A stretch of DNA of 43,018 nucleotides from Phycisphaerales bacterium (GTDB lineage Bacteria > Planctomycetota > Phycisphaerae > Sedimentisphaerales > Anaerobacaceae). Shown one piece after another: positions 22,403 through 40,375 of the stretch; position 1 is the first letter of the stretch, and every line of letters starts with the position of its first letter. A program made the position numbers and the translations under genes. The notes below the pieces were generated by a model. The model did not search any database. It was given only the letters and a program-made list of their open reading frames with translations, and had not been told where the DNA came from. The DNA lies in contig CP070678.1 in the NCBI GenBank assembly GCA_020352515.1, positions 3,813,242 to 3,856,259 of the forward strand, read 5' to 3'.

Positions 22403-23114
22403 CGCTTTTACCTTCGATTCTGTCGATCAGCCCGTCCAGCATGTGAAGCCGCTTTTGCGCGTGCTTTGCTATGCTGGCCTCATGCGTAACAATGATTATC
22501 GTCTTGCCCGCCTCGTTGAGCTTTATCAGAAGCTCCAGAATCTGTTCCCCCGTCGCCGAATCCAGGTTCCCCGTCGGTTCGTCCGCAAAGATCACCTGGG
22601 GATCGTTTGCCAGAGCCCTGGCAATGGCTACACGCTGCATCTGGCCGCCCGAAAGCTCCGTCGGCCGATGGCCGACCCTGTCTCCCAGCCCAACCTCTTC
22701 CGCCAGCTCCCGCGCACGCTCGGCGCTCTGCCTTGCTTCCCAGCCCAGATAATAAAGAGGCAGCTCGATGTTCCGCTGAACAGTCAATTGCGGTATAAGG
22801 TTGAAACTCTGGAATATGAAACCGAGGTACCTGAGCCGAAACTCGCTCAGTGAATCGTCGTCGAGCTGGCTTACGTCCCGGCCCGCAAGATGATAAGACC
22901 CCGAAGTCAAACGGTCCAGACACCCCAAAATGTTCATCATTGTGCTCTTGCCGGACCCGCTCGGACCCATGATGGCCCAGAAGCTGCCCTTTTCGAACGA
23001 GACGCTGATACCGGCGAGCGCCCTGACCTGCTCGGTCCCCATCTGGTATATCTTGCAGGCATCTTCGAGCCTTAGTATTTCCCGGTCGTTGCTCGACGCC
23101 CCAGCCCCGGCCAT
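22389..23114 (-). CDS. MacB/LolD-type ABC transporter ATPase
   Basis: A 241-aa nucleotide-binding protein. Walker A is GPSGSGKST, the Q-loop is [11 protein letters not shown], the ABC signature is [16 protein letters not shown], Walker B is [13 protein letters not shown] and the switch His is in IIVTHE. The sequence type ([20 protein letters not shown]) is that of the MacB/LolD/FtsE group, which drives FtsX-fold permeases. It begins at the base after the adaptor gene ends and overlaps the permease gene, so the three genes form one tight operon. It should sit on the cytoplasmic face and power efflux of the unidentified substrate. Confidence 0.96.
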
Positions 23115-25001
23115 TCAGCGGCTCCTTTCAGATTCGCGACCTCGTGGACCACCCGGCCGGCCACCGCCCGCGCCCTGCCGGGAACCCCTGCCCTGACGTG
23201 GGCCGCCCCCCCCAAAACGCTCACGCATCTTCTCTCGCTCCTCAGGCGACATGTTCTCGAAACGTTGCTTCATCCTCTCCATCTCTTTCTGACGCTCTTC
23301 GTCAGACATGTTCTCGAAACGCCTGCGCATCTGCTCGGCCCGGTCCCCGGACGGCGCCCCGGCCCCATCCGCCCCCCCCGGTCTCGGACCACGCATAACT
23401 TGACCGTTGCCGTTTGCCTCTTCCAGCTTTTGATTCACCCTATCCTGCATCCTCTCGGCATCCTCGTCTTCCGGCATATCTGCGCCCGGCCCCGTGCCGG
23501 ACTCTATCGCCCCGGATTTCAGCGGGGGCGTAAGAAGAACAAGTTCACCTTCCTCAAGGCCGCTCACAATATGGATCATCCGGTCATCGTCCAGACCAAG
23601 CTCAACCTTCCGCTCTTCGGTCCTCCTGTCTTTCACAATGTACACCGTCGGTTCTCCTCCAACCCTCAAGACCGCAGAGACCGGCACATGCACCGCGTCC
23701 TTGTACTGCGCCACGATGATCTCCGCCTTGCAGCTCCTACCCGTACGAAGTGCCGGGTCGTTGTCCTCAAGGTATATGTCCGTCGGGTATATCTTAAGGT
23801 CCGGGTTCATCCACATGCTCCGGGCGTCCGGAAGAGGCGCGATAATCGCTACCCGGCCCAGAAACTGCTTGCCCGCAAGAGCATCTACCGTAATCACCAC
23901 AGGAAGACCAACACGAACCTTCTCAAGGCTCGTCTCGTGAATATCAATCTGCGCCATCATCGCCGCCGCAGTCGGAAGAGATATCAGGTCCTGGCGCTCG
24001 GTAACTTCGACGCCTATGTCAAGTGGCTCACGACGGTCGAACGGGCTACGCCGCCCGCTGCTCGTTGCATAAACAACCATCCCGTCCGCAGGCGCGATTA
24101 TACGCGTCTTAGAGAGCTGATCCTGAAATTTCTTGAACTTGCTCTGCTGCTGGTCGGCCTCGGCCTTCTTTGCGCTCAGGTCCGCCTTCGCCTGCACAAT
24201 GTCGGCGTTCGCCTTGCGCTTTGTACGTTCCAGAGCAAACTCCGCCTGGCTAACATCGCTCTCGTACTGGGCAATGTTTCTCTCGTATGTGAATTTCGTC
24301 AGCACATCCCGGTTGCTTATGGCAAGTTGAAGGTCCAGCTCACGTTTGGTCACGGCCAGCTTGTCCGCATTCAGCTCGCTCTCAGACAGGTATTGGGCGT
24401 CGTATAGCTTCTGCGACGACCGCAGTTTCTCCTGCGCCCGCGCAAGCTCCTCTCGCGCAAGCGTGATTTGAGCTTCCGCCGTCTTTAGCTCATTCGGATA
24501 AAGCCCGTCTAAGTACTGCTGCAAATCCTGCTTGGCGAACCTCAGCGTTAGCTCCGCCTTCTCGATATCGCTCTTCGCCTGGTTCTCAGTAACCGCAAGC
24601 GTCTCGTCGGCCCCGATGTGTGCCGCATTCGCACGCTGAACCTGGATGTCCTGGTCAACTATCGCGTCTTTCAGGGTGCTGGCGTCCAGCTCGACCAGCA
24701 GATCCCCCTTCTTTACCATGCTTCCGTCGGGTACGAGCCTGACGATCGACGTCCTGCCCTCAACCTCGTTTCGCAGAGTGATTCGCTCCCGCGAGGTGAT
24801 AGTGCCCGACTCCAGCACGCTGATAGTCAGCGGGCCCCTCTTGACAACGAAAGTCGCAAGGTGCGCGGTCGGGTCTTCGGCGCCCATGACCAGCTTGAAC
24901 CAGACAACGGCGATAATGACTGCCCCGGCCACAACCGCTATCACGGCCATCTTCACCGATCTAGGTTTTGAGCGACTATCTTGAGCTTTGTCGGCTGCCA
25001 T
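23115..25001 (-). CDS. MacA-like periplasmic adaptor with long coiled coil and Gly/Arg-rich tail
   Basis: A 628-aa membrane fusion protein. One N-terminal helix (VIAVVAGAVIIAVVWFKLV) anchors it; biotinyl-lipoyl halves flank a long alpha hairpin of about 200 residues (roughly 105-310), longer than in MacA, followed by beta-barrel and membrane-proximal domains to about 500. The C-terminus is unusual: an acidic stretch, then two 19-residue units starting FENMS-EER (about 562-598) and a Gly/Arg-rich end. A GAGGTGA site precedes the ATG. It links the inner-membrane permease to an outer-membrane channel. The candidate promoter at 25111-25139 would serve this operon. Confidence 0.92.
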   Translation of the reverse strand: MAADKAQDSRSKPRSVKMAVIAVVAGAVIIAVVWFKLVMGAEDPTAHLATFVVKRGPLTISVLESGTITSRERITLRNEVEGRTSIVRLVPDGSMVKKGDLLVELDASTLKDAIVDQDIQVQRANAAHIGADETLAVTENQAKSDIEKAELTLRFAKQDLQQYLDGLYPNELKTAEAQITLAREELARAQEKLRSSQKLYDAQYLSESELNADKLAVTKRELDLQLAISNRDVLTKFTYERNIAQYESDVSQAEFALERTKRKANADIVQAKADLSAKKAEADQQQSKFKKFQDQLSKTRIIAPADGMVVYATSSGRRSPFDRREPLDIGVEVTERQDLISLPTAAAMMAQIDIHETSLEKVRVGLPVVITVDALAGKQFLGRVAIIAPLPDARSMWMNPDLKIYPTDIYLEDNDPALRTGRSCKAEIIVAQYKDAVHVPVSAVLRVGGEPTVYIVKDRRTEERKVELGLDDDRMIHIVSGLEEGELVLLTPPLKSGAIESGTGPGADMPEDEDAERMQDRVNQKLEEANGNGQVMRGPRPGGADGAGAPSGDRAEQMRRRFENMSDEERQKEMERMKQRFENMSPEEREKMRERFGGGGPRQGRGSRQGAGGGRPGGPRGRESERSR

Positions 25002-25435
25002 GAATCTTCACCTCTTTATAACAACAATCATGCCCTCTTCGGTTGTCCTGCTTCGACTGGTTCCCTGCCCCAGAATAATTAGACTGAGCGATCCGGCCCC
25101 GGTAGCTTGTATTTTAACGCTTTTACGCCGAAACTGCAAGATGTCCTGTCCTCGCACCGAACCGTCAACCTTCTCTGCAAGGCGCCCGCTGCGCCGACGC
25201 CCTACATCACATACGACATTTATCTTAGACGCTCGTCGGCCTCTCGATATGGCATATTAGTCGCCTTTTCCCGGAATTTCGGACGTTTTCCACCATCTCG
25301 CGCTCGGTTTCCCGGCTCAAATGGCGCCATACTCGGCCCCGCCGCGCATCTCGCCCCCCCGCCGCCAAAAAGCCGGCCGAGCCTGCCCAGCGCCCGCTCG
25401 GCGCCGCCGCGGCCCCCCTCATGACCCCTCATCCC
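25002..25435. other. Intergenic region upstream of the efflux operon
   Basis: A 434-nt stretch with no gene I can support. The part near the efflux operon contains the candidate minus-strand promoter at 25111-25139. The part from about 25,270 to 25,430 is a GC-rich, Pro/Arg/Ala-like low-complexity sequence that yields only shadow frames. Confidence 0.5.
25111..25139 (-). promoter_or_regulatory. Candidate promoter of the macA-macB-like operon
   Basis: On the minus strand TTGCAG (plus coordinates 25134-25139) and TAAAAT (25111-25116) are separated by exactly 17 nt. The -10 matches 5/6 and the -35 only 3/6. It would give a leader of about 100 nt before the adaptor ATG at 25001. Confidence 0.4.
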
Positions 25436-25951
25436 TCAGCGCAGCATTGGCTCGGCACGCCTCACGAACTGAATGGGAACACCCCACGGGTCTCTGAGCA
25501 TCGCAATCCGGTCCCCCGCCGCAGTCGTCGAGGCCGCCTCCACCACAACCGCACCGGCCGCAACCAGCTTCTCCTGCATACCCTCAACGTCCTCAACCAT
25601 GAACGCAATGTGCAGGCATAGCGGGTTCATCGACCTGTAATCCGGAATCGCATCGGGCGGATTCGTGTAGATTTCCAGCATCATCTTGCCGCCCGAATCC
25701 GCGATAAACCGCCCATTCACCGGCGGCGGACCCTCTTTCACAATCTTCATCCCCAGATTCTCACAGTACCACTCCGCCATCGCCACAGGGTCCGGCACGT
25801 TTAGCGCCACGTGTTCGAGACAAACCCCCTTCTCTTGCTCTTTCGCTCTCTGCATTGCATCCCCATCTACTGTGCGGCAGCCCTGGCCGGCCAATACTGC
25901 TGATATTGAAACGAGCACAAGTACACGCTTAAACAAAAACCTCAACCTCAT
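25436..25951 (-). CDS. Exported VOC-family (glyoxalase-like) protein
   Basis: A 171-aa protein with a signal sequence (VLVLVSISAVLAGQGC) and a possible but imperfect lipobox (GQGC), so it may be a lipoprotein or a plainly secreted protein. Residues 40-168 form a vicinal-oxygen-chelate domain with two beta-alpha-beta-beta-beta halves: LEHVALNVPDPVAMAEWYCENLG then MLEIY, and LHIAFMVEDVEG with MLRDPWGVPIQFV. Putative metal residues are His47, Glu of MLEIY, His in LHIAF and Glu/Gln near PIQF; the last position is Gln as in some members. AAGGAG precedes the ATG. It is the last gene of the sugar-acid-type operon, about 50 nt after the LarA-like gene. Confidence 0.85.
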   Translation of the reverse strand: MRLRFLFKRVLVLVSISAVLAGQGCRTVDGDAMQRAKEQEKGVCLEHVALNVPDPVAMAEWYCENLGMKIVKEGPPPVNGRFIADSGGKMMLEIYTNPPDAIPDYRSMNPLCLHIAFMVEDVEGMQEKLVAAGAVVVEAASTTAAGDRIAMLRDPWGVPIQFVRRAEPMLR

Positions 25952-26002
25952 TATACGACTCCTTTCTGTATCGCCCCGGCACTACATCGGCCCTTTGTTC
26001 CG

Positions 26003-27334
26003 TCAACTCCCCGCCCCGCCTCCGGGGCCACCCGCTCCACCGCTTGAGCCGAATCGGTCCCTGGACGACCACAGACCCAAAGCCGGGTTCGAGATAAAGT
26101 AAACCTCCTCCCCGTCCCCCGTCGTGTTCGGCCCGTCACGCAGCTTCTCCGGGTTGTACTTCTCCAGCATCGCCGACAGCTCGCCGTATCCGAACCCCAC
26201 CGATTCAATCTCCTCCCTCGTCAAACCCCCGGCACAGTACGTCACTGCGAACCGGCCCTCCGAAGAGCCGTGGATAAGATGGGCCGCCGCGCTCAGGTTC
26301 GCCCGCAAATCCTCCTTTCTTGAGACCAGATCGACCGTCCGCTCCGTCCCGAAATACCCGTACTTCCTTATCAGCCGGTCGATCTCGCCGTCCTCTCCGA
26401 ATTCCCCAACCCCCGGCGCCAGCACGATCAATTCGCCCCCGTCCGCCATCGCCATCCGCGTCCGGTAGATGCTCTTGTTCCCCAGCCACGTGCTCTTGTA
26501 TTCGCCGGGATCCAGATAAACCACCACCTTATCGAGAGGCTCATCGAGCATCCGGAAGTTCACCTCCAGCGACAATTCGGCCGCCCGATTGAAGCACTCG
26601 ATATCATCCCCGATAAACAGCCCCCGAACCGCCGTCCCGCCGTCCGCTTCCGTCGCCACGACCGTATGCACGTACACCACCGGCAGCTCCCGCGCAAAAT
26701 GCTCCGACGCGTAGTTCAACACCCGCCGCACCGGGTTGTCCGGCCTGCCCATGATTCGCTCTATCCCGCACACCGCCCCAAGATAGTGACTCTTGTTGAT
26801 ACCTTCCGCCCCCCCCGCGCCAACGAAGATATTCTTGTTGTAGTTCGCCATCCCGATAACTTCGTGCGGAACCACCTGCCCTATGGACACAATCAGGTCG
26901 AAGCCCCCCGAGACAACAAGTGCGTTCACCTGTGCCGGCCAGTCGTAATCCACCCTGCCCCCGCTCTCACGCCGAACGTACTCCGCCGGAACACGCCCTA
27001 ACGTCTCAAGGTCCCTCCGCCAGTTGTGCTCGCGAAACAATCCAACCGGAACCCGCCCGAACATCTTCTTTATCTGCCCCTCACTCATCGGAAAATGAGT
27101 GCCCGTCGCAGGAAGAATGTCCGTGAGCTTCTGCCCGTAGTAGTCCACGCACATCCGCGTCAGCACCCCCGCCCGCGAATGATACCTCGTAAAATCCGGC
27201 GGTATCGCCAGAACCTTGCCCCGCCGCCCCAGTTTCTCCAGCGCCGCAAACAGCCCCTCCTGCAAATCCTCCGCGCTAAGGCTGGCCTCTTTGTCCCCGC
27301 GGCTGTATAAAAGCACGTCTACTTCGTCTCCCAC
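26003..27334 (-). CDS. LarA-family (DUF2088) nickel-pincer racemase/epimerase homologue
   Basis: A 443-aa protein resembling lactate racemase LarA, which uses a nickel-pincer nucleotide (NPN) cofactor to racemise or epimerise 2-hydroxy acids. Aligning by eye to L. plantarum LarA: Asp47 and Arg50 in PPDFTR, His80 in ATGTH, His157 in VPHEVIG, Lys167 in YNKNIFVG and His183 in NKSHYLG; the D-R (+3), H-K (+10) and K-H (+16) spacings equal those of D72/R75, H174/K184/H200. The nickel and cofactor ligands thus seem conserved. The tail is Gly-rich. The start is a GTG at 27334, overlapping the HAD gene by 16 nt. With a mannonate-type dehydrogenase upstream, an aldonate 2-epimerase role is plausible (inference). 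The larB, larC and larE cofactor genes are absent here. Confidence 0.85.
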   Translation of the reverse strand: MGDEVDVLLYSRGDKEASLSAEDLQEGLFAALEKLGRRGKVLAIPPDFTRYHSRAGVLTRMCVDYYGQKLTDILPATGTHFPMSEGQIKKMFGRVPVGLFREHNWRRDLETLGRVPAEYVRRESGGRVDYDWPAQVNALVVSGGFDLIVSIGQVVPHEVIGMANYNKNIFVGAGGAEGINKSHYLGAVCGIERIMGRPDNPVRRVLNYASEHFARELPVVYVHTVVATEADGGTAVRGLFIGDDIECFNRAAELSLEVNFRMLDEPLDKVVVYLDPGEYKSTWLGNKSIYRTRMAMADGGELIVLAPGVGEFGEDGEIDRLIRKYGYFGTERTVDLVSRKEDLRANLSAAAHLIHGSSEGRFAVTYCAGGLTREEIESVGFGYGELSAMLEKYNPEKLRDGPNTTGDGEEVYFISNPALGLWSSRDRFGSSGGAGGPGGGAGS

Positions 27335-28233
27335 GGCGGCAGCTCCGGCAGGTACGAGTCAAACTCCGCAATCAGCTCGGCCTCGTAATCCCCGGCGTAT
27401 TCGCCGTTCAAAAATCTCTCGAACGCCTCGTCGTGAAAACGCTTCCACGACGCAACCTCGTCCCCGGGATTAACCGGGTAGAACAACGCATCGTTCGCTC
27501 GCGCCGCCTTCATGTCACCCAACGCGTCGCCGACCATCAGCACATGATCCTTTGCGTACCGCCCCTTCGTTGCGTAATCCAGGTGCTGCGCCTTCGTGCC
27601 CATCTCCTGCCCCGCAATCACCTCCGCGTATTTGGCGATATCGTGCTCCTCCCACTCGCGGGCCAGAGCCTCGTTCGGCGTCGCCGAGACCACGATAACA
27701 TCCGCTAACGGCTGAATCTTCTCCAGGCTCTCGCGAACGAACGGAAAGGGCGGCATCCCCTTAACAATCTGGGCGATGCACTCGTTCACCTTCTCGCTCC
27801 ACGCCAGCGCAAGCTCGAGCTCCCCTCTCGCATCGGGATCTGCCGCCGCCTCGATCGCCTCCTTCAGCCCGTCGTTGCTCAAAAGGCTCTTCGGATCGTC
27901 AACCCACGCAAAGTAGTGCGGGTACTGCGGAACCTCGAAACCCCTCGCCCTCGTCATCGGATGCCCCGGCAGCAGCTCGGCGATTATCCGCTTGGTCGTC
28001 TTGTGGCGGTTTGCCCCGCGCGTCTTGGAAAACAAATCCGCAAATTCCTTGCAGTCCCGCGCCGCCTTCGCCACCGGCTGAAGTCCGAAATAGCCGATCA
28101 GCCACGGACAAAAACACTCCCGCTGCTTGATGCCCATCGTGTCGAACGCACAGCCGTCCGAGTCTATCCCCACAAAGAATTCGTGCTTCGCTTCAAAATC
28201 CTTCAAAGCCTGCGCCGGATCCACTGCCGTCAT
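27319..28233 (-). CDS. HAD-superfamily hydrolase
   Basis: A 304-aa cytoplasmic protein with haloacid-dehalogenase motifs: DSDG at residues 24-27 (nucleophile Asp24, Asp26), motif II VVSATPN, a Lys in KGRYAKDHV, and motif IV VGDALGDMKAA. A large helical cap lies between. Most HAD proteins of this kind are phosphatases; the substrate is not predictable, but its place between an SDR and a LarA homologue suggests a sugar or sugar-acid phosphate. GGAGAAGG precedes the ATG at 28233. It overlaps the following gene by 16 nt and follows the SDR by 44 nt. Confidence 0.88.
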   Translation of the reverse strand: MTAVDPAQALKDFEAKHEFFVGIDSDGCAFDTMGIKQRECFCPWLIGYFGLQPVAKAARDCKEFADLFSKTRGANRHKTTKRIIAELLPGHPMTRARGFEVPQYPHYFAWVDDPKSLLSNDGLKEAIEAAADPDARGELELALAWSEKVNECIAQIVKGMPPFPFVRESLEKIQPLADVIVVSATPNEALAREWEEHDIAKYAEVIAGQEMGTKAQHLDYATKGRYAKDHVLMVGDALGDMKAARANDALFYPVNPGDEVASWKRFHDEAFERFLNGEYAGDYEAELIAEFDSYLPELPPWETK

Positions 28234-28277
28234 TTGCCTTCTCCGTGATAGTCCTAATCCTTCACCTGCCTCGACAC

Positions 28278-29096
28278 TCACACCCCGCTAAAGGCCGAAA
28301 AGCCCCCGTCAACCGGAACCACCACCCCCGTCACAAACTTCGCCGCGTCGCTCAACAGCCATATCACCGTCCCAACAAGGTCACCCGGCTCGCCGAACCG
28401 ACCCGCCGGAGTGTGCTCGATGATCGTCTTGCCGCGAGCCGTCAATTCCCCCGTCTCTTCGTCCGTCAACAGGAACCGGTTCTGCTCGGTCAGGAAAAAT
28501 CCCGGCGCAATCGCATTCACCCGAATCTCCGCCGAACAGTTCCGGCAGACATGCACCGCCAACCACTGCGTAAAGTTGCTCACCGCCGCCTTCGCCGCCG
28601 AGTACGCCGCAATCTTCGTCAGAGGCCGAAACGCGTTCATGCTCGACACGTTCAATATCACCCCCGAACCCGACTCCGCCATCACCTTCCCGAAAACCTG
28701 GCTCGGCAGAAGAGTGCCCAGAAAGTTCAAATCGAACACGAATCGAACCGCTTCCGGCGGCAAATCGAAAAACGACATCTCCGGCGACGTCGTCGCCTCT
28801 TTCTTGTTGCCCCCGGCCCCGTTTATCAAGGCGTCGATCCTCCCGAATTCCGACACGACCCTATCCCTCGCCGCCTTCAGGCTCCCCTTATCCAGCACGT
28901 CGCACCTCACGGCCACAGCCGCCCCCCCCGCGCCGCCGATTTGCCCGGCCACCTTCCCGGCCGCCCTCTCGTCAAGGTCCAGCACCGCAACCTTCGCGCC
29001 GGCCTTCGCCAGCGCCCGCGCCATCTCCCCGCACAGAACGCCCCCCGCCCCGGTTATCACGATTACCCTGCCCTTTACATCGAAGATATTGTCCAT
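28278..29096 (-). CDS. SDR oxidoreductase, D-mannonate/fructuronate type
   Basis: A 272-aa short-chain dehydrogenase. The cofactor loop is VITGAGGVLCGEMARAL near residue 14, the acidic residue after strand 2 is Asp in VLDLDERAAG (NAD preference), the active-site Ser lies in LNVSSMNAF and Tyr/Lys in YSAAKAA. The run FLTEQNRFLL and the ending VVVPVDGGFSAFSGV are characteristic of the SDRs next to uxuA-type genes that act as D-mannonate oxidoreductase (fructuronate reductase). It would feed hexuronate-derived mannonate metabolism. It is the first gene of the four-gene operon and diverges from the cupin gene; its ATG has only a weak Shine-Dalgarno. The assignment is by family resemblance. Confidence 0.9.
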   Translation of the reverse strand: MDNIFDVKGRVIVITGAGGVLCGEMARALAKAGAKVAVLDLDERAAGKVAGQIGGAGGAAVAVRCDVLDKGSLKAARDRVVSEFGRIDALINGAGGNKKEATTSPEMSFFDLPPEAVRFVFDLNFLGTLLPSQVFGKVMAESGSGVILNVSSMNAFRPLTKIAAYSAAKAAVSNFTQWLAVHVCRNCSAEIRVNAIAPGFFLTEQNRFLLTDEETGELTARGKTIIEHTPAGRFGEPGDLVGTVIWLLSDAAKFVTGVVVPVDGGFSAFSGV

Positions 29097-29217
29097 TTCT
29101 CAAATTCCTGATTGAATCACCTGGTCCGCCGGAATATATAGGATTCAAGTGGCTGTTTCAACAGTTTTTTGATTTGGGCGCCGGCCGACCCTGCCGGGCC
29201 GCTCTCGGGAGAATGAT

Positions 29218-29559
29218 ATGGCCAATTACATGATTGCTGACTTCGACCAAATCGACCCCGTCCCCTGCCCCTGCGGACTCGCAAGACGGGCTTTCCTCGC
29301 CCCCGATAATCCCACCGCCACCATGCACGTTACCGAAATCTCACAGGATTCCCGAGTCCACTACCACAAGAACCTCACCGAGATATACTTCATCCTCGAA
29401 GGCCGCGGAGAAATGCAGCTCGACGGCGACAACATCCCGGTCCGACCCTTCAACGCAATACTCATAAAGCCCGAATGCCGACATCGCGCCGTCGGAAAAA
29501 TGAAGCTCCTTATCGTCGTAATCCCCCCATTCGACAGAAACGACGAATTCTTCGATTAA
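29218..29559 (+). CDS. Small cupin protein
   Basis: A 113-aa single-domain cupin with GGGAG seven nt before the ATG. Metal ligands by pattern: His48 and His50 in VHYHKN, Glu55 in TEIYFILEG, and His89 in CRHRAVG. The conserved start with PVPCPCG and the end PPFDRNDEFFD are typical of a planctomycete cupin group. It is divergent from the SDR-HAD-LarA operon and could be an accessory isomerase, in the manner of KdgF that opens uronate rings, or a sensor; both are inference. No partner gene lies downstream. Confidence 0.88.
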   Translation: MANYMIADFDQIDPVPCPCGLARRAFLAPDNPTATMHVTEISQDSRVHYHKNLTEIYFILEGRGEMQLDGDNIPVRPFNAILIKPECRHRAVGKMKLLIVVIPPFDRNDEFFD

Positions 29560-30042
29560 CCAAACAACCCCGCGCCCGCCCAACAAGTCCGACCCGTGCA
29601 ACCCGCCCAGGCTGACCAACCCGTCTGACCTGTCCGACAAGTCCGACTAAACTACCCCCATTCCCAAAACGCCGCGCCACGCTCCCACACTCGCACCACT
29701 TGACCGCCGCGTACTGCTCCCCCGAAAGCGAGACACTTTTAAGCGGCAGCGAGGCTATTATGTCCAGCCGCAGACTCCCTCGGCCTATGCTACTCCAAAG
29801 CCAGGTGGATCTGACACATCCCCAGTCTTGTAGTAGCACATCGTGTCTCAGGGCCTTCAGAAGGTGGTGGACCTTGAGCATAGGGTAACCAACTTTCATC
29901 GCCAAAGAGCCGTCCATTTCTATTACACAACTATCGAAACCGGGGATGAGTCAGGTAGAAGCCGGTTGCAGAAGGGCCGATTGGAGGGTATCATCGGACG
30001 CCGAAGTTGATAACAGTGGTATCTAAGTAAAGGGAGGTTCGA
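29560..30042. other. Intergenic region containing the skew switch
   Basis: A 483-nt gap. It starts with a low-complexity GTCCGAC-type tract (listed separately). 29,650-29,920 contains a minus-strand frame (about MDGSLAMKVGYPML onward) that I do not recognise and that lacks a clear Shine-Dalgarno. No DnaA box (TTATCCACA-like) or dif-like site was found. The strand asymmetry of G and C changes here between the cupin and GH127 genes. Confidence 0.5.
29582..29648. repeat. Degenerate GTCCGAC low-complexity tract
   Basis: ACAAGTCCGAC occurs at both ends of the tract, with degenerate GACC/CCGTC/TCCGAC units between. It follows the cupin stop by about 20 nt. Similar tracts are seen between genes in high-GC bacterial genomes; it has no coding role. 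Confidence 0.5.
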
Positions 30043-32469
30043 ATGCTGAATCAAAGACAAATGTTCGCGGCGGTTCTTGTGGTGGTTGTGACGTCCGGAT
30101 TGTGCGCCGCAGAACAAGGCAAAGTGGCGCTGGAGCGTGATTACAACGTCAAGCCGGTGCCCTTCAGCCGGGTCGAGGTGGAAGACGACTTCTGGACGCC
30201 CCGGCTCGAGACCAGTCGAAAGGTCACAATCCCCTACGCCTTCGCCAAATGCGAAGAAACTGGGAGAATCAGGAACTTCGAGAAGGCGGCCGGACTTATG
30301 AAGGGCGCGCACGAAGGGATTTACTTCAATGATTCCGACGTCTACAAGGTCATGGAAGGCGCCGCCTATTCGCTCCAGGTCCGGCCCGATACCATGATGC
30401 GCCTGTATCTCGACAAGCTCGTCAAAATCATGGCCCGGGCGCAGTGGGAGGACGGATACCTCTTCACCTTCTACTCCGTGCCTGAAAGGCAGCCGGAGAA
30501 GCTCTGGACCAATGTGCAGTCGATTCACGAGCAGTACTGCGTCGGTCACATGTACGAGGGCGCAGTCGCACACTACCAGGTGACCGGGGAAAAGTCGTTT
30601 CTCGATATTGCAACGAAAAACGCGGACCTGATCTGCAGGACGTTCAATCCGGACAAGCGGACCGACCCGCCCGGACACCAGGAGATCGAGATAGGGCTCT
30701 GCAAGCTGTATCGCGTGACCGGGGACGCGAAGTACCTCGAGCAGGCGAAGTTCTTCCTCGACCAGCGCGGGCGCAAGGGCAACCGCGGACCCGACGGCAG
30801 GAGGGGACTCTACGGAACCTACAGTCAGGACCACGTGCCTGTCACCGAGCAGACAAAGGGCGTCGGACATTCGGTTCGGGCGGCCTATATGTATACGGGG
30901 ATGGCGGACGTCGCGGCGCTGACGGGCAACATGGAATATGTCCGCGCCATAGACGCCATCTGGAAAGACGTCCTGGACACCAAGCTCTACATAACCGGCG
31001 GCATCGGCGCCGCTGGCGGACACGAAGGATTCGGCGAACCCTACTACCTGCCGAATATGACCGCCTACTGCGAGACGTGTGCGTCGATTGCGAATATCTT
31101 CTGGAACCATCGCATGTTCCTGATGCACGCCGACGCCAAGTACATCGACGTCCTCGAGCGGGTCCTGTACAACGGGGCCCTCTCGGGCATCTCCCTCGAG
31201 GGCGACAGGTTCTTCTACCCGAATCCTCTCGAATCAACCGGCCAGCATGCCCGAAGCCCGTGGTTCGGCTGTGCGTGCTGTCCTTCGAATGTCGCCAGGT
31301 TCATTCCGTCGGTGCCCGGCTATGCGTATGCCTTCAAGGGCAACGACGTGTACGTGAACCTGTTTATGGGCGGCCGGGCCGTGATTGAAACGGCCGGCAA
31401 CAGAATCAAGCTCTCGCAGAAGACCGGGTATCCCTGGAAGGGCCAGGTTAGAATCTCCGTCGAGCCGGACAAAAGCGAGCGCTTCTCAGTGTACGTGCGG
31501 ATTCCCGGCTGGGCCCGCAACGAAGCGGTCCCGAGCGACCTCTACAAATTCCTCGAAGACGCTGACGACCAAGTCGTGCTGAAGGTCAACGGCGCCCCGG
31601 TGTCGCCCAAAATCGAAAGGGGCTACGCGCGGATCGAGCGCGAATGGCGAAAGGGCGACGCGATCGAGCTGGAGCTGCCGATGCCGGTGCGGAGGATCAT
31701 CGCGCATCCGAGCATAACGGCGGACCGCGACAGGGTCGCCCTTCAGCGTGGGCCGGTTGTCTTCTGTCTCGAGTCGAAAGACAACGGCGGGCAGGTATTA
31801 AACCTGGCGATTGAGGACGATGCGAGGCTCGAAACCGAGTTTCGGCCGGACCTCTTAAACGGCGTCGTGGTGATTACCGGCAATGCGCGGCTTGCCAAGC
31901 GGACACTGGACGGCAGCGTTGTTCCAGCGGGCCAAAAGCAATTCACGGCCATACCCTACTACGCCTGGGCCCACCGCGGTCGCGGCCAGATGACCGTCTG
32001 GCCGGCCCGGCGGCCACAGGCGGCCCGGCCTCAACCGGCCGATACCCTGACGTACATAAGCAAGACCACCGCTTCCTTCGTCCACGTCTCGCTCGATGCT
32101 ATCAAGGACCAGATACTCCCGGCAGACTCGGCCGATTCGTCCGGCCTGCAACTGGACTTCTGGCCCCACAAGGGAACCACCGAGTGGATTGCCTTCGAGT
32201 GGGACAGCAAGCATGAAATATCCAGCGTCAAGGTCTACTGGTTCGACGATACGGGCAGGGGCGAATGTCACCTCCCGGAATCCTGGACGCTGCTGTATCG
32301 CGACGCCGCAGGCGACTTCAAACCGGTCAGGAATAAGACCGCCTACACGATAGAGAAGGACAGGTTCAACAAGGTTGACTTCGAGCCGGTCAAGACGAAC
32401 GCCGTCAAGATGGAGATTGTTCTACAGGACAGATGGTCGGCCGGCGTCCAGGAGGTCGTGATCGAATAG
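30043..32469 (+). CDS. GH127-family beta-L-arabinofuranosidase with C-terminal beta domain
   Basis: An 808-aa exported enzyme (signal about residues 1-23; AAAGGGAGG upstream). Residues 40-640 form the GH127 (former DUF1680) alpha/alpha barrel and beta domains. Aligning by eye to Bifidobacterium HypBA1: the acid/base Glu corresponds to Glu328, Zn ligands to Glu344 and Cys346 (CETC), and the nucleophile/Zn cysteines to Cys412 and Cys413 in CACCPSN; the Glu-Glu spacing of 16 is conserved. An extra C-terminal region (about 680-808) looks like an F5/8-type carbohydrate-binding fold, with WIAFEWDSKHEISSVKVYWFDD. It should remove beta-L-arabinofuranosyl residues from plant or algal glycans outside the cytoplasm. 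Confidence 0.92.
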   Translation: MLNQRQMFAAVLVVVVTSGLCAAEQGKVALERDYNVKPVPFSRVEVEDDFWTPRLETSRKVTIPYAFAKCEETGRIRNFEKAAGLMKGAHEGIYFNDSDVYKVMEGAAYSLQVRPDTMMRLYLDKLVKIMARAQWEDGYLFTFYSVPERQPEKLWTNVQSIHEQYCVGHMYEGAVAHYQVTGEKSFLDIATKNADLICRTFNPDKRTDPPGHQEIEIGLCKLYRVTGDAKYLEQAKFFLDQRGRKGNRGPDGRRGLYGTYSQDHVPVTEQTKGVGHSVRAAYMYTGMADVAALTGNMEYVRAIDAIWKDVLDTKLYITGGIGAAGGHEGFGEPYYLPNMTAYCETCASIANIFWNHRMFLMHADAKYIDVLERVLYNGALSGISLEGDRFFYPNPLESTGQHARSPWFGCACCPSNVARFIPSVPGYAYAFKGNDVYVNLFMGGRAVIETAGNRIKLSQKTGYPWKGQVRISVEPDKSERFSVYVRIPGWARNEAVPSDLYKFLEDADDQVVLKVNGAPVSPKIERGYARIEREWRKGDAIELELPMPVRRIIAHPSITADRDRVALQRGPVVFCLESKDNGGQVLNLAIEDDARLETEFRPDLLNGVVVITGNARLAKRTLDGSVVPAGQKQFTAIPYYAWAHRGRGQMTVWPARRPQAARPQPADTLTYISKTTASFVHVSLDAIKDQILPADSADSSGLQLDFWPHKGTTEWIAFEWDSKHEISSVKVYWFDDTGRGECHLPESWTLLYRDAAGDFKPVRNKTAYTIEKDRFNKVDFEPVKTNAVKMEIVLQDRWSAGVQEVVIE

Positions 32470-33672
32470 CCGGCCCGGCGTGGTTTTCCGACTGCCCATC
32501 AGATCGGGGCAGGCGCCGAGATCATCGGCCTCTTGCATGAGGGTCAGCGTTTCGGCCCCGCGGTCGGTTAGAATGTCGAGCAGGATTTTGTGGACGGGTT
32601 TTCTCAGCGGGGTCGCCGGCCGGAGTTTGCCGACGATTTTCAAGCCCTTTTCGGGCATCGTGCTCATTCGGTATCGCCCGCGGGCGGGCGGGTCGTATTC
32701 GGACGAGCTGCCGTCGGCGAAGATTCGGGCGGCTTTCAGGGCGATGGGCGTTCCATCCTTGGCGAACGCGCGGATTCTTCCGGCGAAGCCGGCCGGCTCG
32801 GGCATCTCGAACGCGACCCGCCGGACCGTGCGGCCTTTGGGCGGGGCAACAGTCATTTCGAAGAGATACCAATCGTCCGTGCGCTCGATGTTCCTGTGGA
32901 GAACACGGAGCGGCTCGGCCGCGGAAGAAGGCCGCCCGGTTTTTGGGATGTCCAGCTTCTGCCCGCCGTACGCCGGCACTCCGGGGCGGGGGCCGTTTAC
33001 CGTGGCTTGCAGCTCGTATTCACCCGCATCTAGGCCGCGGTCAAAGAATATGACCAAAGGGAATCTGTCGTTGGGGTCGATCAGGATGTAGCTTCCGTGC
33101 GCGAGATTGGCGTATTCGCGTTGGTCGGTTTTGGCAATAACCTGGCCCAGTTGAATATGGCGCAGGTAACGGACGTTCATCTGCGCTTTGGTGTATTCGG
33201 GCACGAGCCATGACGGAGCGTTGGGCTCGCCCCCGCCCGGCAAGTCGGAAGGGCCGTAGAGGACGACCACGACACCTGAGACGGGAACTGTCAGAGTTTT
33301 CTCCGTGGTGTTCGTGAGATTGAGAATCAGTTGGAACGGGGCGCCCGGTTCGAGATTGCACGGGATTGTGCTGATATCGACATCCAGGGGCGCCGGGGAC
33401 AGTGGCTCGATAGAACCGATTTCGAGCATTATTGCCGGGCCCGGATTCTTCGGTTGCACTCCTTTGGTCACTTCGAGGCGGATGGGCTTGCCGTCGTATG
33501 GCCCGAGGGCGGCGTGGAGATCCGGCCGGACGATGAAAAAGCCGAAATGCCCCACGCCCCAGCGGTCCCGGTGGTAGAAGCCATCGAATGTGCCTTTGGT
33601 GGGCAGCGTTTCCGCGGGGGCCGGGCCGCTTGTCAAGAAAACAACTGTGGAAAGCAAAAGCACGGCTCTCAT
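32422..33672 (-). CDS. Secreted protein of unknown function
   Basis: A 416-aa exported protein; AAGGAG precedes the ATG at 33672, and the N-terminus is a clear signal peptide (AVLLLSTVVFLTSGPAPA). The rest is beta-rich without a motif I can name: Ig-like segments such as FQLILNLTNTTEKTLTVPV and EYELQATVNG, and a hydrophobic patch VVVVLYGPSDLPGGG. The last roughly 25 residues run over the 3' end of the GH127 gene, so the two genes overlap convergently by 48 nt (32422-32469). This suggests an original stop codon was lost or that the termini are co-evolved. It may be a periplasmic partner of the arabinofuranosidase, but only location supports that. Confidence 0.8.
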   Translation of the reverse strand: MRAVLLLSTVVFLTSGPAPAETLPTKGTFDGFYHRDRWGVGHFGFFIVRPDLHAALGPYDGKPIRLEVTKGVQPKNPGPAIMLEIGSIEPLSPAPLDVDISTIPCNLEPGAPFQLILNLTNTTEKTLTVPVSGVVVVLYGPSDLPGGGEPNAPSWLVPEYTKAQMNVRYLRHIQLGQVIAKTDQREYANLAHGSYILIDPNDRFPLVIFFDRGLDAGEYELQATVNGPRPGVPAYGGQKLDIPKTGRPSSAAEPLRVLHRNIERTDDWYLFEMTVAPPKGRTVRRVAFEMPEPAGFAGRIRAFAKDGTPIALKAARIFADGSSSEYDPPARGRYRMSTMPEKGLKIVGKLRPATPLRKPVHKILLDILTDRGAETLTLMQEADDLGACPDLMGSRKTTPGRLFDHDLLDAGRPSVL

Positions 33673-33868
33673 CTCGAATCTCCTTCGGCCGGCACAATCA
33701 GCAATCAAGCAGCTTAAATCCCCGCGGAAAACGGGCGAAAACGGCGCAGAATTATCACACTGCTATCATCTAAGACGGATCAAGCGCCCAAAAGGCAACG
33801 CTATTTCTTTCCCGCTTCTACCGGGCCGCCTCGCGGAGGCTGCGTTTCCTTGCGAATCGGACGGCTGG

Positions 33869-34645
33869 TCAGAGCTTTTCGTATTTCATGATGGCCCGGT
33901 AGAGACCGTTTATGCGTTTTCCGCTGACGACCAGCGGCGAGTAGTTCTCGTTTCTCGGCTGGAGCCGGATTTTGTTTCCGGCCTCGAAGAAAACTCGCTT
34001 GAACGTCGTCTCGTGCGGCGAGCCGAAGCGGATAAAGCAGTCGTCGCCGTTGTGCACCTCAGCGGCGGGCGAGAAGATCACAATGTCACCCTGGTGGAAT
34101 CTCGGCTCCATGCTATCGCCCACCACGCGAACGGCAAAAGCATTGGGGTCGTGCAGATCGGGGCACCGGACGTAGTCGTCGGCGACGCCCACGGGGTAGT
34201 CCAGGTCGTTGAAGTCGGCCGGATAGCCCGCCGAAACCCTGTTTATGACCGGCACGAGTCTTCCCGGCGGCAGGGACCCGCCCCGCCGGCTAACTTTCAG
34301 CTTGCCCTTCGAAACCATCGCCCCAATCTTCGATACGTTGCTCTTCCTGCCGACGAGGTCCTTTATCAGGCTCCGCAGCTTGAGGTTCTCGGCCTCGGCG
34401 ATCTCGTATTCCCGCCGAATGTCCGGAGGCATCGCCTCCATGTGCGCCATTCTCAGCAGAAGGCCCTTCTTGAACTTGAGCACATCCTCCAGCCGCTTGA
34501 GCAGCTCGTCGCCGGGCGGGTTCTTAACCTTCCCCGTTTCGATCGTCGAGAGATACGGTTTCGAAAAGCCGACTCGATTGCTCACCTCGTCCAGGGTCAA
34601 GCTCATCTCTTCACGCTTTTTTCTTATTATTTGTCCGAGTGACAT
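33869..34645 (-). CDS. XRE/S24 LexA-like autocleaving repressor
   Basis: A 258-aa regulator. Residues 1-58 are an XRE helix-turn-helix (LGQIIRKKREEMSLTLDEVSNRVGFSKPYLSTIE). A linker helix (78-100) leads to a peptidase S24 domain with a cleavage Ala139-Gly140 in RVSAGYP, Ser178 in VGDSMEP and Lys216 in TTFKRV, the Ser-Lys dyad of LexA and CI repressors. GAGGTG precedes the ATG. It should repress a target and be inactivated by self-cleavage when RecA or another signal activates it. It follows the DUF362 ferredoxin-like gene by nine nt on the same strand, so it is probably co-transcribed; targets are unknown. Confidence 0.92.
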   Translation of the reverse strand: MSLGQIIRKKREEMSLTLDEVSNRVGFSKPYLSTIETGKVKNPPGDELLKRLEDVLKFKKGLLLRMAHMEAMPPDIRREYEIAEAENLKLRSLIKDLVGRKSNVSKIGAMVSKGKLKVSRRGGSLPPGRLVPVINRVSAGYPADFNDLDYPVGVADDYVRCPDLHDPNAFAVRVVGDSMEPRFHQGDIVIFSPAAEVHNGDDCFIRFGSPHETTFKRVFFEAGNKIRLQPRNENYSPLVVSGKRINGLYRAIMKYEKL

Positions 34646-34654
34646 CAGCGCACC

Positions 34655-35749
34655 TCAAATTGCTGCAGGCTGCCAATCCACCTGCACAAGGTCGTACCTG
34701 CTGTGGCCGAGGCCGATAAGCTCGGCGTGTCTGATTTGATGACGTGGGTCGAGCCTGTCATTGGCCAGCAGCTTCCCAAGCTTCTTGCCGGCGGCTTTCT
34801 CGACGAGGTCGAGCGACGCCTTATCCACCGCCACGGGGTCGTTGGATGCGGCAATTCCGATATCATCGACTATTTTAGGCATGTCCGCACTGTCGAAGCA
34901 ATCACAATCTTTGGTAACTGTTAAAAGAAAATTAAAAAATACAGACCGGTTTTCCTTCCCCTTAAGGGCCCCGAGCGCGTGCTCGGCCACCGACCTCTGC
35001 AGTATCTCGTTCTCCTGCTCCCAGTCGTACTCGACGGCCCCGAACCTGCAGACCGCCACGCACTCGGCGCAGCCGATGCACTTCTCCTGGTCGATGTGGG
35101 CCTTCACGTGGTCGAGCGTGATGGCCTCGGCCGGGCAGTGCGTGCGGCAATCCCCGCATCTCGTGCAGTCGTCGCCCACCGAAGGTTTGAGCGCCGAATG
35201 CTGCCGCATCTTGCCTTTTCTGCTCGCGCAGCCCATTCCAAGCGTCTTGAGGCTGGCCCCAAGAGCCGTTGCCACGTGACCGGTCAAGTGCGCAACCGAC
35301 AGGATAGACTGGCACCTCACTATGTCCGACGCGATAAACACGTCGTCGTTCAACTGGGCGTTGACGGTAACCGCGGTCTCGGCCGTTCCGAAAAGCCCGT
35401 CCGGCGAGATAAATGGTATCCCCAGGCCGTGGACGTCGAATCCGTGCTCGGCCGCGAGAATCGCGTGGTCCACGGCGTTATGCCTGCGCCCGGTGTAAAG
35501 GGTGCTCGTGTCGGCAATGAAGGGCCTGGTCTTGAGGGCGAGAAGCTCCTCGACGAGCCCCTTGATACACGCCGCGGATACGAAAGTGTTGTTGCCGTGC
35601 TCGCCGACGTGGACCTTGACCGCGGTGAAATCGTTTTCTCTGAAACAGCTTTCGAAGCGGCCGAGCTTGAACAATCTGCGGGCCTTCTCGGATATAGTGC
35701 TCGCCCCGTCGTCGATTGAGGCCCTGATAAAGTAGACTTTGGATGCCAT
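34655..35749 (-). CDS. DUF362 iron-sulfur protein
   Basis: A 364-aa cytoplasmic protein: a DUF362 domain (about 1-190; VKVHVGEHGNNTFV, the tail of IVRCQSILSVAHLTGH) followed by two 4Fe-4S clusters, CTRCGDCRTHCP and CIGCAECVAVC, spaced as in 2[4Fe-4S] ferredoxins, and a final DUF362 extension with GIAASNDPVAVDKASLDLV. Similar proteins are called uncharacterised Fe-S center proteins; they may donate electrons to an unknown oxidoreductase. The start lacks a strong Shine-Dalgarno. Being directly upstream of the XRE/S24 repressor is notable. Confidence 0.9.
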   Translation of the reverse strand: MASKVYFIRASIDDGASTISEKARRLFKLGRFESCFRENDFTAVKVHVGEHGNNTFVSAACIKGLVEELLALKTRPFIADTSTLYTGRRHNAVDHAILAAEHGFDVHGLGIPFISPDGLFGTAETAVTVNAQLNDDVFIASDIVRCQSILSVAHLTGHVATALGASLKTLGMGCASRKGKMRQHSALKPSVGDDCTRCGDCRTHCPAEAITLDHVKAHIDQEKCIGCAECVAVCRFGAVEYDWEQENEILQRSVAEHALGALKGKENRSVFFNFLLTVTKDCDCFDSADMPKIVDDIGIAASNDPVAVDKASLDLVEKAAGKKLGKLLANDRLDPRHQIRHAELIGLGHSRYDLVQVDWQPAAI

Positions 35750-35857
35750 GAAGACACCGTTTCCAATCAGCCTGCGGCTCCGTGATTGCCGGACGACCGC
35801 GCCCGGTCAAACAGTGTGGGTTATTATATACTCTATATTTCCGTCTGCAAGCACCGT

Positions 35858-36418
35858 TCAGAAGAGCAGGTGCTCGACAAGGATTTTCACGCCGATCGCA
35901 ATCAGAACCAGGCCGCCCGCGATTTCGATCTTCTTTTCGAAAAAATGCCCGAATTTCTTCCCGACCGCTACGCCCAGATAGGAGAGAACGAACGTGACCA
36001 GACCGATAATACCGGCCGCCGCGGCGATCGACGACGTGATCAGCGAGAGGGTAACACCGATTGCCAGCGCGTCGATGCTCGTTGCAACCGAGAGGACCAG
36101 AAGCGTAAGCAGGTTGGATGGATCGTGAACTCTGTCCGCAGGTTCGATTTTGAAAGACTCGTAAATCATCTTTGCGCCGACAGCGGCCAGGAGGATGAAG
36201 GCCACCCAGTGGTCGTAGGAGGCCACGTACTGTTTCAAAGTCAAACCCGCCAGAGAGCCGACAAGGGGCATCAGGGCCTGAAATCCGCCGAAGAAAAGGG
36301 CTATTCTCAGGGCGTGTCTTATCTTTAGCTCTCTGAACGTCGCCCCGCTGACGATTGAGACGGCGAAGGCGTCCATCGCCAGGCCCACGGCTATGACGAT
36401 AATCGTGATGACGGGCAT
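35858..36418 (-). CDS. mntP: Manganese efflux pump MntP
   Basis: A 186-aa inner-membrane protein with six helices in two DUF204 repeats. Each repeat has the conserved Asp: GLAMDAFAVSIVSG near residue 15 and ATSIDALAIGVTLS near 112. It exports Mn(II). GAGGAT precedes the ATG. I looked for a yybP-ykoY manganese riboswitch upstream and did not see one; the upstream sequence is only 38 nt from the metallophosphoesterase stop, so it is likely co-transcribed with that gene. Confidence 0.95.
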   Translation of the reverse strand: MPVITIIVIAVGLAMDAFAVSIVSGATFRELKIRHALRIALFFGGFQALMPLVGSLAGLTLKQYVASYDHWVAFILLAAVGAKMIYESFKIEPADRVHDPSNLLTLLVLSVATSIDALAIGVTLSLITSSIAAAAGIIGLVTFVLSYLGVAVGKKFGHFFEKKIEIAGGLVLIAIGVKILVEHLLF

Positions 36419-36456
36419 CCACTATCCTCTTCGGTTCGTCGCCCTCACGGCGCCGG

Positions 36457-37392
36457 CTATTTCGCGGGGCCGATATCGAAGACGGCGACCTCGGGTCTTG
36501 CGAGGAATCTGACCCTCGGCGCAAATCCGCCTTCCATCCCGACCCCTCGATTGACGTAGAGCTTTGTGCGGCCCACCGTGTACAGGCCGGACTCGTACTT
36601 TTTACCATATTTCGCCAGCGTAACCAATGCCCCGTATATCGGCAGCGCAACCTGCCCGCCGTGCGTGTGCCCGGACAGGTAGAAATCAACATTGAGCCCG
36701 CCGAGGCTCTCGACGAGATCCGAGAAGTGACAGAGCAGCACGCTCACCTGGTCGGGCGGGACTTTTTCAAGCAGGCCCCTGAAAGGGCTCATGTGCAGAC
36801 AGGCCAGCCCCGTGATGCTGACGCTCTCGCCCCCCTTCGTTAAGCTGACGGTTTTGCCCTCCACCAGTTGGAAGCCGGTGCCGAAGAACAAATCCAGGTG
36901 TGCCCAATGCCCGAGGTCACAGTTGCCGCGAACGGCCAGTTTCGCGACGGACGCCTTCAAGTCCGTCAGAGTCTTCTTGAAGGTCGGCTCTGCGCGGATC
37001 GAATTGAGGGCGTCACCGGTGAAAACGATGATGTCCGCTTCAAGCGCGTTTATCACCTCCACCAGCCTCTTTTCATTTCGAATCTTCCTGTCGCAGTGAA
37101 GGTCGGAAATCTGGACTATGCGGAACGTGACGCCGGTCAGCTTGTCCGTTCGGACGGGAATGATGTTGACCTCCAGCCGGTACGGCTCGACGAAGTACCC
37201 CCAGAGCACACAGGCGATGATCGCCGCCGTCAGCGCATGGACAAGAATTGCCGGCGGGCCGATGAGAATATTCGTCTTTTTCTTGTTGAGCCTGTCGAGC
37301 GTGAAGGCGACCACCAGGGAAACCTCGGCGAGGCAGACCGCCGCCAAAAACGCGAAGAAAATCAGGACCCTGGTTGTCTCGGCGACGCTCAT
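36457..37392 (-). CDS. Membrane-anchored metallophosphoesterase
   Basis: A 311-aa protein. Two or three N-terminal helices (residues about 8-75) precede a calcineurin-like phosphoesterase domain with the ordered metal motifs QISDLHCD, FTGDALN, RGNCD, LLCHFSD and SGHTHGGQV. This resembles the YkuE/YaeI group of membrane phosphoesterases; some act on UDP-2,3-diacylglucosamine or other lipids, but the substrate here is unknown. The start has no strong Shine-Dalgarno and lies 6 nt beyond the DUF1638 stop, so coupling is likely. Its metal dependence (often Mn) makes the neighbouring MntP gene interesting. Confidence 0.9.
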   Translation of the reverse strand: MSVAETTRVLIFFAFLAAVCLAEVSLVVAFTLDRLNKKKTNILIGPPAILVHALTAAIIACVLWGYFVEPYRLEVNIIPVRTDKLTGVTFRIVQISDLHCDRKIRNEKRLVEVINALEADIIVFTGDALNSIRAEPTFKKTLTDLKASVAKLAVRGNCDLGHWAHLDLFFGTGFQLVEGKTVSLTKGGESVSITGLACLHMSPFRGLLEKVPPDQVSVLLCHFSDLVESLGGLNVDFYLSGHTHGGQVALPIYGALVTLAKYGKKYESGLYTVGRTKLYVNRGVGMEGGFAPRVRFLARPEVAVFDIGPAK

Positions 37393-37398
37393 GCGGTA

Positions 37399-38115
37399 TC
37401 AGTCGGCCTTCATTATACCCTGGTTAGTGACATCTTCGGCGATTTTCCGCCCCGGCTTTACCACCAGAAACTCTTCTTCGTCCCATTGCCCGTCCAGCAT
37501 CCTCTGCATCAGCCCCGGGTCGCCTTTCAGCTCGTCGTAGTTCCAGCCGAGGAAGTCGGCGCACTGCCTTGTGAATTGCCTGTATTTTTCGGAATCGGCC
37601 ATGCCCCAGTCGATATACGTCGCCCAGTTGTATTCCTTGATCCAGGTCTGCTCGACCTCCATCAGGTATTTGGCGTTGTCCTCCCCGTATTTCTGCCTGT
37701 ACTCTGCCAGCAGCGCCTCGTACCTCTGCCGGCCCGGCTGCTTTCCGGATTCGATCCAGCCGGGGCTGTACCAGTAAACCCCGCGGTGGGAATCGAAATA
37801 CTCCTTGTACCTTTCCTTTGACCCGAGCAGAAGCGTGATGCAGTCGTGCCCGCGCGCGACGACCACCGGAATCTGCGCCGAGAGGCCCGCAATCCCGTTG
37901 CTGCACAGCCCGTAGCCCAGAAGCGAAGCGTCATAGGGCCGGCCCTGGACGTCGTGCGTTGTCTCGAGGGCCTTCTGCACCTGCCTGCGAAGCCTGTCGG
38001 GCTCGTCGTGAAGACCCTGCTCCATCAGCACAACATCGACCAAATTCTTCGAGCGGGCCGCGCACAGATACGCCTCCCGCTGCATCACCTTGCATACGAT
38101 AAACTGGAGTATCAT
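37399..38115 (-). CDS. DUF1638 protein
   Basis: A 238-aa cytoplasmic protein that fits DUF1638. Visible conserved parts are LQFIVCKVMQREAYLCA at the start, GYGLCSNG in the middle, VVARGHDCITLLLGS and YWYSPGWIESG. DUF1638 occurs in methanogens and anaerobes, often near corrinoid methyltransferase genes, and has no proven function; Cys and His residues in the middle suggest metal or corrinoid binding (inference). The ATG at 38115 is preferred over the TTG seven codons upstream. It heads the DUF1638-phosphoesterase-mntP run. Confidence 0.85.
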   Translation of the reverse strand: MILQFIVCKVMQREAYLCAARSKNLVDVVLMEQGLHDEPDRLRRQVQKALETTHDVQGRPYDASLLGYGLCSNGIAGLSAQIPVVVARGHDCITLLLGSKERYKEYFDSHRGVYWYSPGWIESGKQPGRQRYEALLAEYRQKYGEDNAKYLMEVEQTWIKEYNWATYIDWGMADSEKYRQFTRQCADFLGWNYDELKGDPGLMQRMLDGQWDEEEFLVVKPGRKIAEDVTNQGIMKAD

Positions 38116-38348
38116 CAAACTACCCTGAAAATACAAGCTGTCCGTCCGGATACGAATTTCGTCCGGCCGTTGTTCTTTACGGACTTTGACGGCGGATACT
38201 AATCCAAGCAGGCTAAAATGCCAACAGGAAAATAACGCATCCCCGCCCCCGCCGCGCCTCCACCGTCCGCTATGCGGCGGAATTGCCTTGCATTTGCCCG
38301 CCGCGACCGTATTTTGTATCTAACGTGACCGTTTTTGTGGGAGGTTGC

Positions 38349-40370: not shown

Positions 40371-40375
40371 TTTCT

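Follow-up and report, generated by a model that had tools for sequence, protein, structure and literature searches.

Introduction

Local inversions of GC skew have been described in several bacteria and interpreted as segments that were inverted (Merrikh and Merrikh 2018, PMC6220195), irregular GC-skew profiles have been reported for cyanobacteria with DnaA-independent, multi-origin replication (PMC7198777), and misassemblies appear as skew inversions between inverted repeats (PMC7111523). The comparisons below refer to extracts of these three papers. The locus described here is an intergenic gap in the chromosome of a member of the Phycisphaerae. It lies in a window, the whole stretch of 43,018 bp that was analysed (G000:C1:3,813,242-3,856,259, G000 being the genome under study), and the chromosome is a single contig of 5,840,692 bp.

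As in the extract on inverted segments (PMC6220195), the skew of a segment is taken here as a record of past replication orientation. There, however, a clear replichore skew serves as the reference, whereas none is significant in the sampled part of the present chromosome, where the 4-fold sites of genes show skews of up to about 0.84 and nearly every 250-kb bin mixes both signs. The cyanobacteria, as far as the extract of PMC7198777 goes, share with this chromosome an origin-terminus skew that is unreadable despite the presence of dnaA. Random initiation would, as we reason, be expected to lower local asymmetry, and the strong local blocks found here are a difference from the cyanobacteria. 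Skew reversals flanked by repeats are a likeness to the misassemblies as the extract of PMC7111523 presents them, but the step found here ends at neutral without a reversal of sign, and the chromosome has numerous steps and short blocks. No description of a patchwork skew of such a kind was found among the matches listed for open-licence literature, in titles and the beginnings of abstracts.

Sample and measurements

The chromosome sample comprised 2.8 Mb of the 5.84 Mb (48%), all of it from before 4.474 Mb. Asymmetry was measured for each gene at 4-fold degenerate third positions, which are synonymous, and expressed on the + strand. Gene calls came from a simple script rather than a trained gene finder. 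Genes with fewer than 60 informative 4-fold sites were left out of the 1566-gene statistics and the neighbour correlations. At least 50 sites per gene were required for the sign comparison between opposite strands (134 comparisons), the composition and repeat-gap tests and the comparison with E. coli, at least 40 for the count of genes on the G-rich strand (547 genes) and at least 30 for relatives. Intergenic gaps shorter than 60 bp or longer than 3000 bp were dropped before counts were made. The relatives compared all belong to other genera, and many of their genomes are fragmented.

The skew step at the gap

The features of the window to which the analysis refers are the following, in window coordinates.

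19,416-29,559, both strands: block rich in C+A on the + strand, with genes for 6PGDH, MacB-type ABC efflux, a Lar_N-domain protein, HAD and SDR (minus) and cupin (plus), from 4-fold skew and Pfam; segmentation block 3,832,657-3,842,800 of the contig
29,218-29,559, plus strand: cupin gene (Cupin_2 match), last of the conserved cluster, C-rich, 4-fold skew -0.89
29,560-30,042, no strand: intergenic gap with the skew step and several dispersed repeat pieces, from skew and repeat searches
29,566-29,658, no strand: C-rich repeat piece with units of the TGTCCGAC type, resembled by pieces in L008 (76%) and L036 (82%)
29,713-29,810, no strand: second dispersed piece, of 98 bp, with copies in L011 (83%) and L036 (67 bp)
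29,811-29,954, no strand: MITE-like element, 144 bp, with inverted ends of about 20 bp; paired-end copies elsewhere in the chromosome
30,043-32,469, plus strand: GH127-type gene (Pfam PF07944), first of the neutral block, 4-fold skew -0.12
33,869-38,136, minus strand: second conserved cluster, neutral skew, including DUF362/4Fe-4S and metallophosphoesterase genes; co-located matches in relatives, for example G001, G007, G009 and G011

The original prediction of an abrupt change in strand asymmetry was borne out. A split of the 20 genes at the gap gave a log likelihood ratio of 112, a value never reached in 2000 shuffles of the gene order, in which the best split averaged 25.8. On the left the + strand is C-rich, as had been claimed, with a GC skew of -0.25 to -0.32 in 1-kb windows starting at 25,001-28,501, and the 60-nt line at 28,321, for which about 27 C and 9 G had been given, holds exactly 27 C and 9 G on recounting. 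Between 19.4 and 29.56 kb the + strand is rich in C and A at the 4-fold sites of all nine genes examined, whichever strand encodes them (4-fold skew -0.31 to -0.89). The lowest value belongs to the plus-strand cupin gene (n = 50 sites), which is thus C-rich as described and in this resembles the other eight genes of the block, all on the minus strand (-0.31 to -0.66); here the asymmetry follows position and not transcription, as had been proposed.

The description of the right side as G-rich did not hold. The stretch 30,043-43,018 is balanced, with an overall skew of -0.01, the 1-kb windows starting from 30,001 on lie between -0.10 and +0.13, and the right-hand genes examined have 4-fold skews of -0.12 to +0.21. 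The GH127 gene, which had been called G-rich, has a skew of +0.02 over its whole length, and the next gene, on the minus strand, where a G-rich + strand had likewise been claimed, has about +0.11 (4-fold +0.21) within a right side that is balanced overall. Because the right side is balanced rather than G-rich, the change at the gap is a step to neutral and not a sign flip. Inside the gap the skew is -0.44 and -0.54 up to 29,712, -0.14 at 29,713-29,810, -0.04 at 29,811-29,955 and +0.41 at 29,956-30,042, which places the change at about 29,713-29,955. Segmentation of the chromosome also has an edge at the gap: the block to its left comprises 9 genes (-0.54), and the one to its right comprises 46 genes (+0.05) and extends rightward for about 60 kb.

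Further steps are present within the window near 11.8, 15.4-16.2 and 19.3 kb. The stretch from 11.8 to 15.4 kb (lpxB and neighbours) is a strong C-rich block, 16.2-18.7 kb (dapA-like and aldehyde dehydrogenase genes) is near neutral, and strong skew resumes from 19.4 kb. A scan of the window for RNA families and tRNA genes found none, and its sequence contains no N.

Gene order on the two sides of the gap

Of 80 relative loci, many of them truncated, 18 contain the HAD and SDR genes together with the opposite-strand cupin gene, and 6PGDH lies within 2 kb of the cluster matches in 11 of 18 relatives. The conserved cluster is 6PGDH-LarN-HAD-SDR-cupin, and the gap forms its outer edge. A called gene past the cupin was present in 17 of the 18 loci; over as many as three genes per locus no shared ancestral neighbour was found, the largest gene family being present in 4 of the 17. 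Since the relatives each carry something different past the cupin gene, its end is well supported, by these comparisons of sequence, as the edge of conserved gene order across the group.

On the right, the GH127 gene and one further gene lie between the gap and the cluster at 33.9-38.1 kb, and neither had a match in the 80 relative loci. When nine right-hand genes, these two included, were compared with these loci, only the gene at 41,065 was matched (26-53% identity; L184, L194 and L199). The change of gene order across the gap, which had been put forward for checking in relatives, was confirmed: among the matches listed, all from other genera and many from fragmented genomes, the cluster adjoins GH127 in none of the 80 loci and, on the whole-genome level, in none of 30 relatives, where GH127 lies on another contig or far away. 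The nearest exception is G030, with a weak GH127-like stretch about 6 kb from the SDR match in opposite orientation; the best GH127 match of that genome is 1.7 Mb away. The neutral block spans a further edge of conserved order, that between GH127 with its neighbour and the cluster at 33.9-38.1 kb, without a step. The chromosome also contains a second GH127-like stretch (G000 4,329,621-4,331,068) with about 65% DNA identity.

Only here is a MacB-type ABC efflux operon (21,134-25,001) located between 6PGDH and LarN-HAD-SDR-cupin; it is found elsewhere in G001, G003, G011, G019, G021 and G024. Its skew is the same as that of its flanks. The Lar_N-domain gene (26,003-27,334) shows 55-73% identity to a gene beside HAD in 10 relative loci and 46% in L224, and most other relative loci carry a version that is only about 26-31% identical. 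The divergent versions could be explained either by replacement in place or by two old paralogues. The skew of the HAD orthologues was compared in 46 of the 80 relative loci, two of them without a called HAD gene. In the remaining 44 it ranges from -0.59 to +0.57; skew is therefore not a fixed property of the gene and turns over faster than these proteins diverge.

Repeats in the gap and at other skew steps

The second dispersed piece of the gap overlaps with an 81-bp match of 85% in the relative G013. The element at 29,811-29,954 looks, from its sequence, like a MITE. MITEs are short elements with inverted ends and copies of several lengths, and the 144-bp element is likewise short, has inverted ends and is accompanied by longer relatives of 246 bp (G000 954,689) and 529 bp (G000 1,915,382). 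A stretch at 808,049-808,339 is perhaps another relative. The end of the element has 11 matches genome-wide at up to 2 mismatches, compared with none for a reversed control. A search of 40 relatives did not recover the element, and no full-length transposase was seen in the three paired elements of the sampled 48% (144, 246 and 529 bp). An ORF of 135 amino acids on the minus strand at 29,510-29,917, overlapping the gap, had no Pfam match, and TRF found no tandem repeats in the gap.

Dispersed repeats and skew steps are linked in the sampled half, to which the search for repeat copies was confined, so that repeats are undercounted. The skew jump was 0.327 at 136 repeat-bearing gaps and 0.210 at the 737 others (873 usable gaps). 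After removal of gaps beside repeated genes, 744 gaps remained, 94 of them with repeats; the mean step at repeat gaps was 0.331 compared with a permutation mean of 0.259, and 5 of 5000 permutations, stratified by gap length and strand switch, gave a value as large. When gaps were instead classed by segmentation, with gaps beside genes having dispersed copies again removed and 118 of the 206 segmentation steps entered, 33 of the 118 step gaps contained repeats, compared with 92 of the 806 gaps without a step (odds ratio 3.0, gap length uncontrolled). Repeats may also insert into places that are already variable.

Skew along the sampled chromosome

The sampled chromosome is made up, like a patchwork, of skew blocks that depend more on position than on the orientation of genes. 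In 20-kb stretches the skew drifts around zero with both signs, and between adjacent 5-kb stretches the difference exceeds 0.2 in 46 of 439 pairs. In the uninterrupted 400 kb surrounding the window, 19 of 287 gaps show a difference between their 10-kb flanks that equals or exceeds the 0.51 of the present gap. By our own grouping, as adjacent gaps share steps, these correspond to about 8 separate places, the present gap included. Frequent local flips of this kind had been named beforehand as refuting the original prediction, and against an origin-type switch that objection applies. On the coding strand the mean 4-fold GC skew is -0.04 with an SD of 0.32 (1566 genes), and gene skews are broadly distributed around a single peak. 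With a common gene caller, the SD is 0.32 here; 153 genes from 11 loci of other groups give 0.19, and 130 genes from 200 kb of E. coli K-12 give 0.17.

Skews of neighbouring genes on the + strand are correlated with r = +0.34 in 439 opposite-strand pairs and 0.70 in 953 same-strand pairs, the correlation decaying over about 10 kb. After recentring, the opposite-strand correlation is +0.39 here (470 pairs), whereas it is negative in E. coli K-12 (-0.17, 36 pairs) and in the 11 loci of other groups (-0.14, 38 pairs). The pooled loci of Phycisphaerae-like relatives gave 0.64 for the same strand and 0.26 for opposite strands (108 pairs), weaker than here; single relative loci vary, and several are without any step. 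A strongly skewed gene shares its + strand sign with its opposite-strand neighbour in 93 of 134 comparisons, a pair being counted twice if both genes are strong. Only 243 of 547 strongly skewed genes have their own strand as the G-rich one, and the G-rich strand is also T-rich. The agreement of 117 of 123 minority-strand genes with their block was discarded as circular, the blocks having been cut by skew.

The 4-fold GC content is 0.73-0.76 at every skew strength, and the strand-symmetric tetranucleotide distance rises with skew (Spearman 0.13, p 0.002), from 0.162 up to 0.180 in the windows of strongest skew. Because the GC content is even and the tetranucleotide change small, the blocks look mostly like native DNA with a differing strand history. 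Foreign DNA was rejected on composition, the 4-fold GC content being equal and the tetranucleotide distance only slightly raised. The density of steps was also discarded as a sign of unusual structure, since segmentation gave 74 steps per Mb compared with 62-70 in E. coli at the same penalty; relative to E. coli only the strength of the skew and its positional correlation differ, not the step frequency.

Cumulative skew of the full chromosome had been suggested as a check; in the sampled 48% no significant two-arm skew pattern was found. The best two-arc split, 1.1-4.0 Mb (mean +0.02) versus the rest (-0.09), was matched by 45 of 300 permutations and is not significant. The segment comprises about half of the chromosome and has one end near dnaA. 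At the gap itself a chromosome-scale change of sign is absent from the sampled 48%, the change being from negative to neutral only. The dnaA gene is located at 3,956,797, at a distance of 113 kb from the gap. It lies inside a 46-kb G-rich block, L024-L026 (G000 3941404-3987589; 4-fold +0.48, genes on both strands), and segmentation shows no step at dnaA. A search of the sampled sequence for strict E. coli-type DnaA boxes found no cluster; diverged boxes would escape it.

Discussion

The gap is best read as an old rearrangement junction in a Phycisphaerae chromosome. The gene order across it differs from that of the relatives, and the repeats at the junction are copied elsewhere in the chromosome. 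We consider it probable that the step is the edge of a block in a much-rearranged chromosome, in which strand asymmetry would be a fossil of earlier orientations. Segments would have undergone inversion or relocation again and again, frequently at repeats between genes. Each would have acquired its G+T-rich or C+A-rich asymmetry during replication in an earlier orientation and, once moved, would retain it for a time; the border between segments of unlike history would then appear as a sharp step. We infer such a fossil-skew mechanism, replication as the maker of the asymmetry, and a rearrangement at or near the gap that brought the two blocks side by side. In favour of this reading stand the positional character of the skew, its variation among the HAD orthologues, the even 4-fold GC content and the larger steps at repeat-bearing gaps. 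The conserved-order edge with dispersed repeats in the gap agrees with the inversion or insertion junction of the original prediction as far as a junction is concerned; the event would have been an inversion, a translocation or an insertion. A simple recent inversion is not supported, as it would be expected to leave opposite signs on both sides and the right side is neutral.

A model of flipping and relaxation, based on our own reasoning and arithmetic, is consistent with repeated rearrangement. A broad, single-peaked distribution of gene skews is expected from repeated flipping, and about two to four flips per relaxation time would fit the one observed. The same model predicts a residual arm-wise mean of about 0.11-0.14 that is not clearly seen, and the lack of a significant two-arm (replichore) signal in the sampled 48% counts against the fossil reading. 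Several observations stand on the same side: at least one apparent insertion edge, that of the ABC operon, has no step, the neutral block crosses an edge of conserved order without one, the step frequency per Mb is not above that of E. coli, and the windows of strongest skew differ slightly in tetranucleotide composition.

Some of these observations would suit a strand-asymmetric process acting in place on domains of about 5-20 kb, for example through the direction of repair synthesis or local replication restarts, with the steps as domain borders. Such a process would account for the skew that the ABC operon shares with its flanks inside the cluster, for an arm-wise trend that is not significant and for orthologue skews that differ among relatives. 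We know of no local strand-asymmetric process of this kind, which counts against it, and the association of steps with repeats is predicted directly by rearrangement; we regard the local process as unlikely. Rather doubtful, too, is the more general proposition that replichores do not govern the strand asymmetry of this lineage, with very strong G+T/C+A domains of about 5-20 kb turning over faster than orthologous proteins diverge, via either rapid repeat-mediated flipping or an undescribed local strand-specific process.

Blocks acquired horizontally, retaining the skew of a strongly skewed donor, could show sharp edges with repeats, and the small rise of the tetranucleotide distance where skew is strongest points in the same direction. 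We nevertheless find this origin improbable, given a 4-fold GC content that is even across skew strengths and a left block that is largely a cluster conserved in relatives of the family and order.

An asymmetry driven by transcription or codon choice and changing by chance between two groups of genes is very improbable. The genes of the left block are mostly on one strand and same-strand neighbours are more strongly correlated than opposite-strand ones, as would be expected in that case, but the opposite-strand cupin gene has a + strand skew of equal sign, opposite-strand neighbours are positively correlated on the + strand, and only 243 of the 547 strongly skewed genes are placed on their G-rich strand. 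As the main cause, transcription or codon choice is disfavoured and largely refuted by these orientation statistics. The chance that two unrelated sequences were joined in the contig is equally slight: there is a repeat at the step, yet the window is without N, comparable steps occur nearby, and clusters on both sides are conserved in relatives of the same family. Since positional skew blocks recur in the sampled chromosome and in the pooled loci of relatives, a special artefact is unnecessary for the step.

A replication origin or terminus at the gap, which would fit a sharp change that tracks position rather than gene strand, is hardly credible in view of the neutral right side, the roughly 8 places with equally large steps within 400 kb, the distance to dnaA and the absence of a strict DnaA-box cluster from the sampled sequence.

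Implications

The step should accordingly not receive an origin annotation. In Phycisphaerae with a patchwork of this kind, tools that use GC skew for the placement of origins or for checks of assembly could mislead. If the fossil reading of the asymmetry is true, the skew steps would amount to a map, obtained from one genome, of past rearrangement breakpoints.
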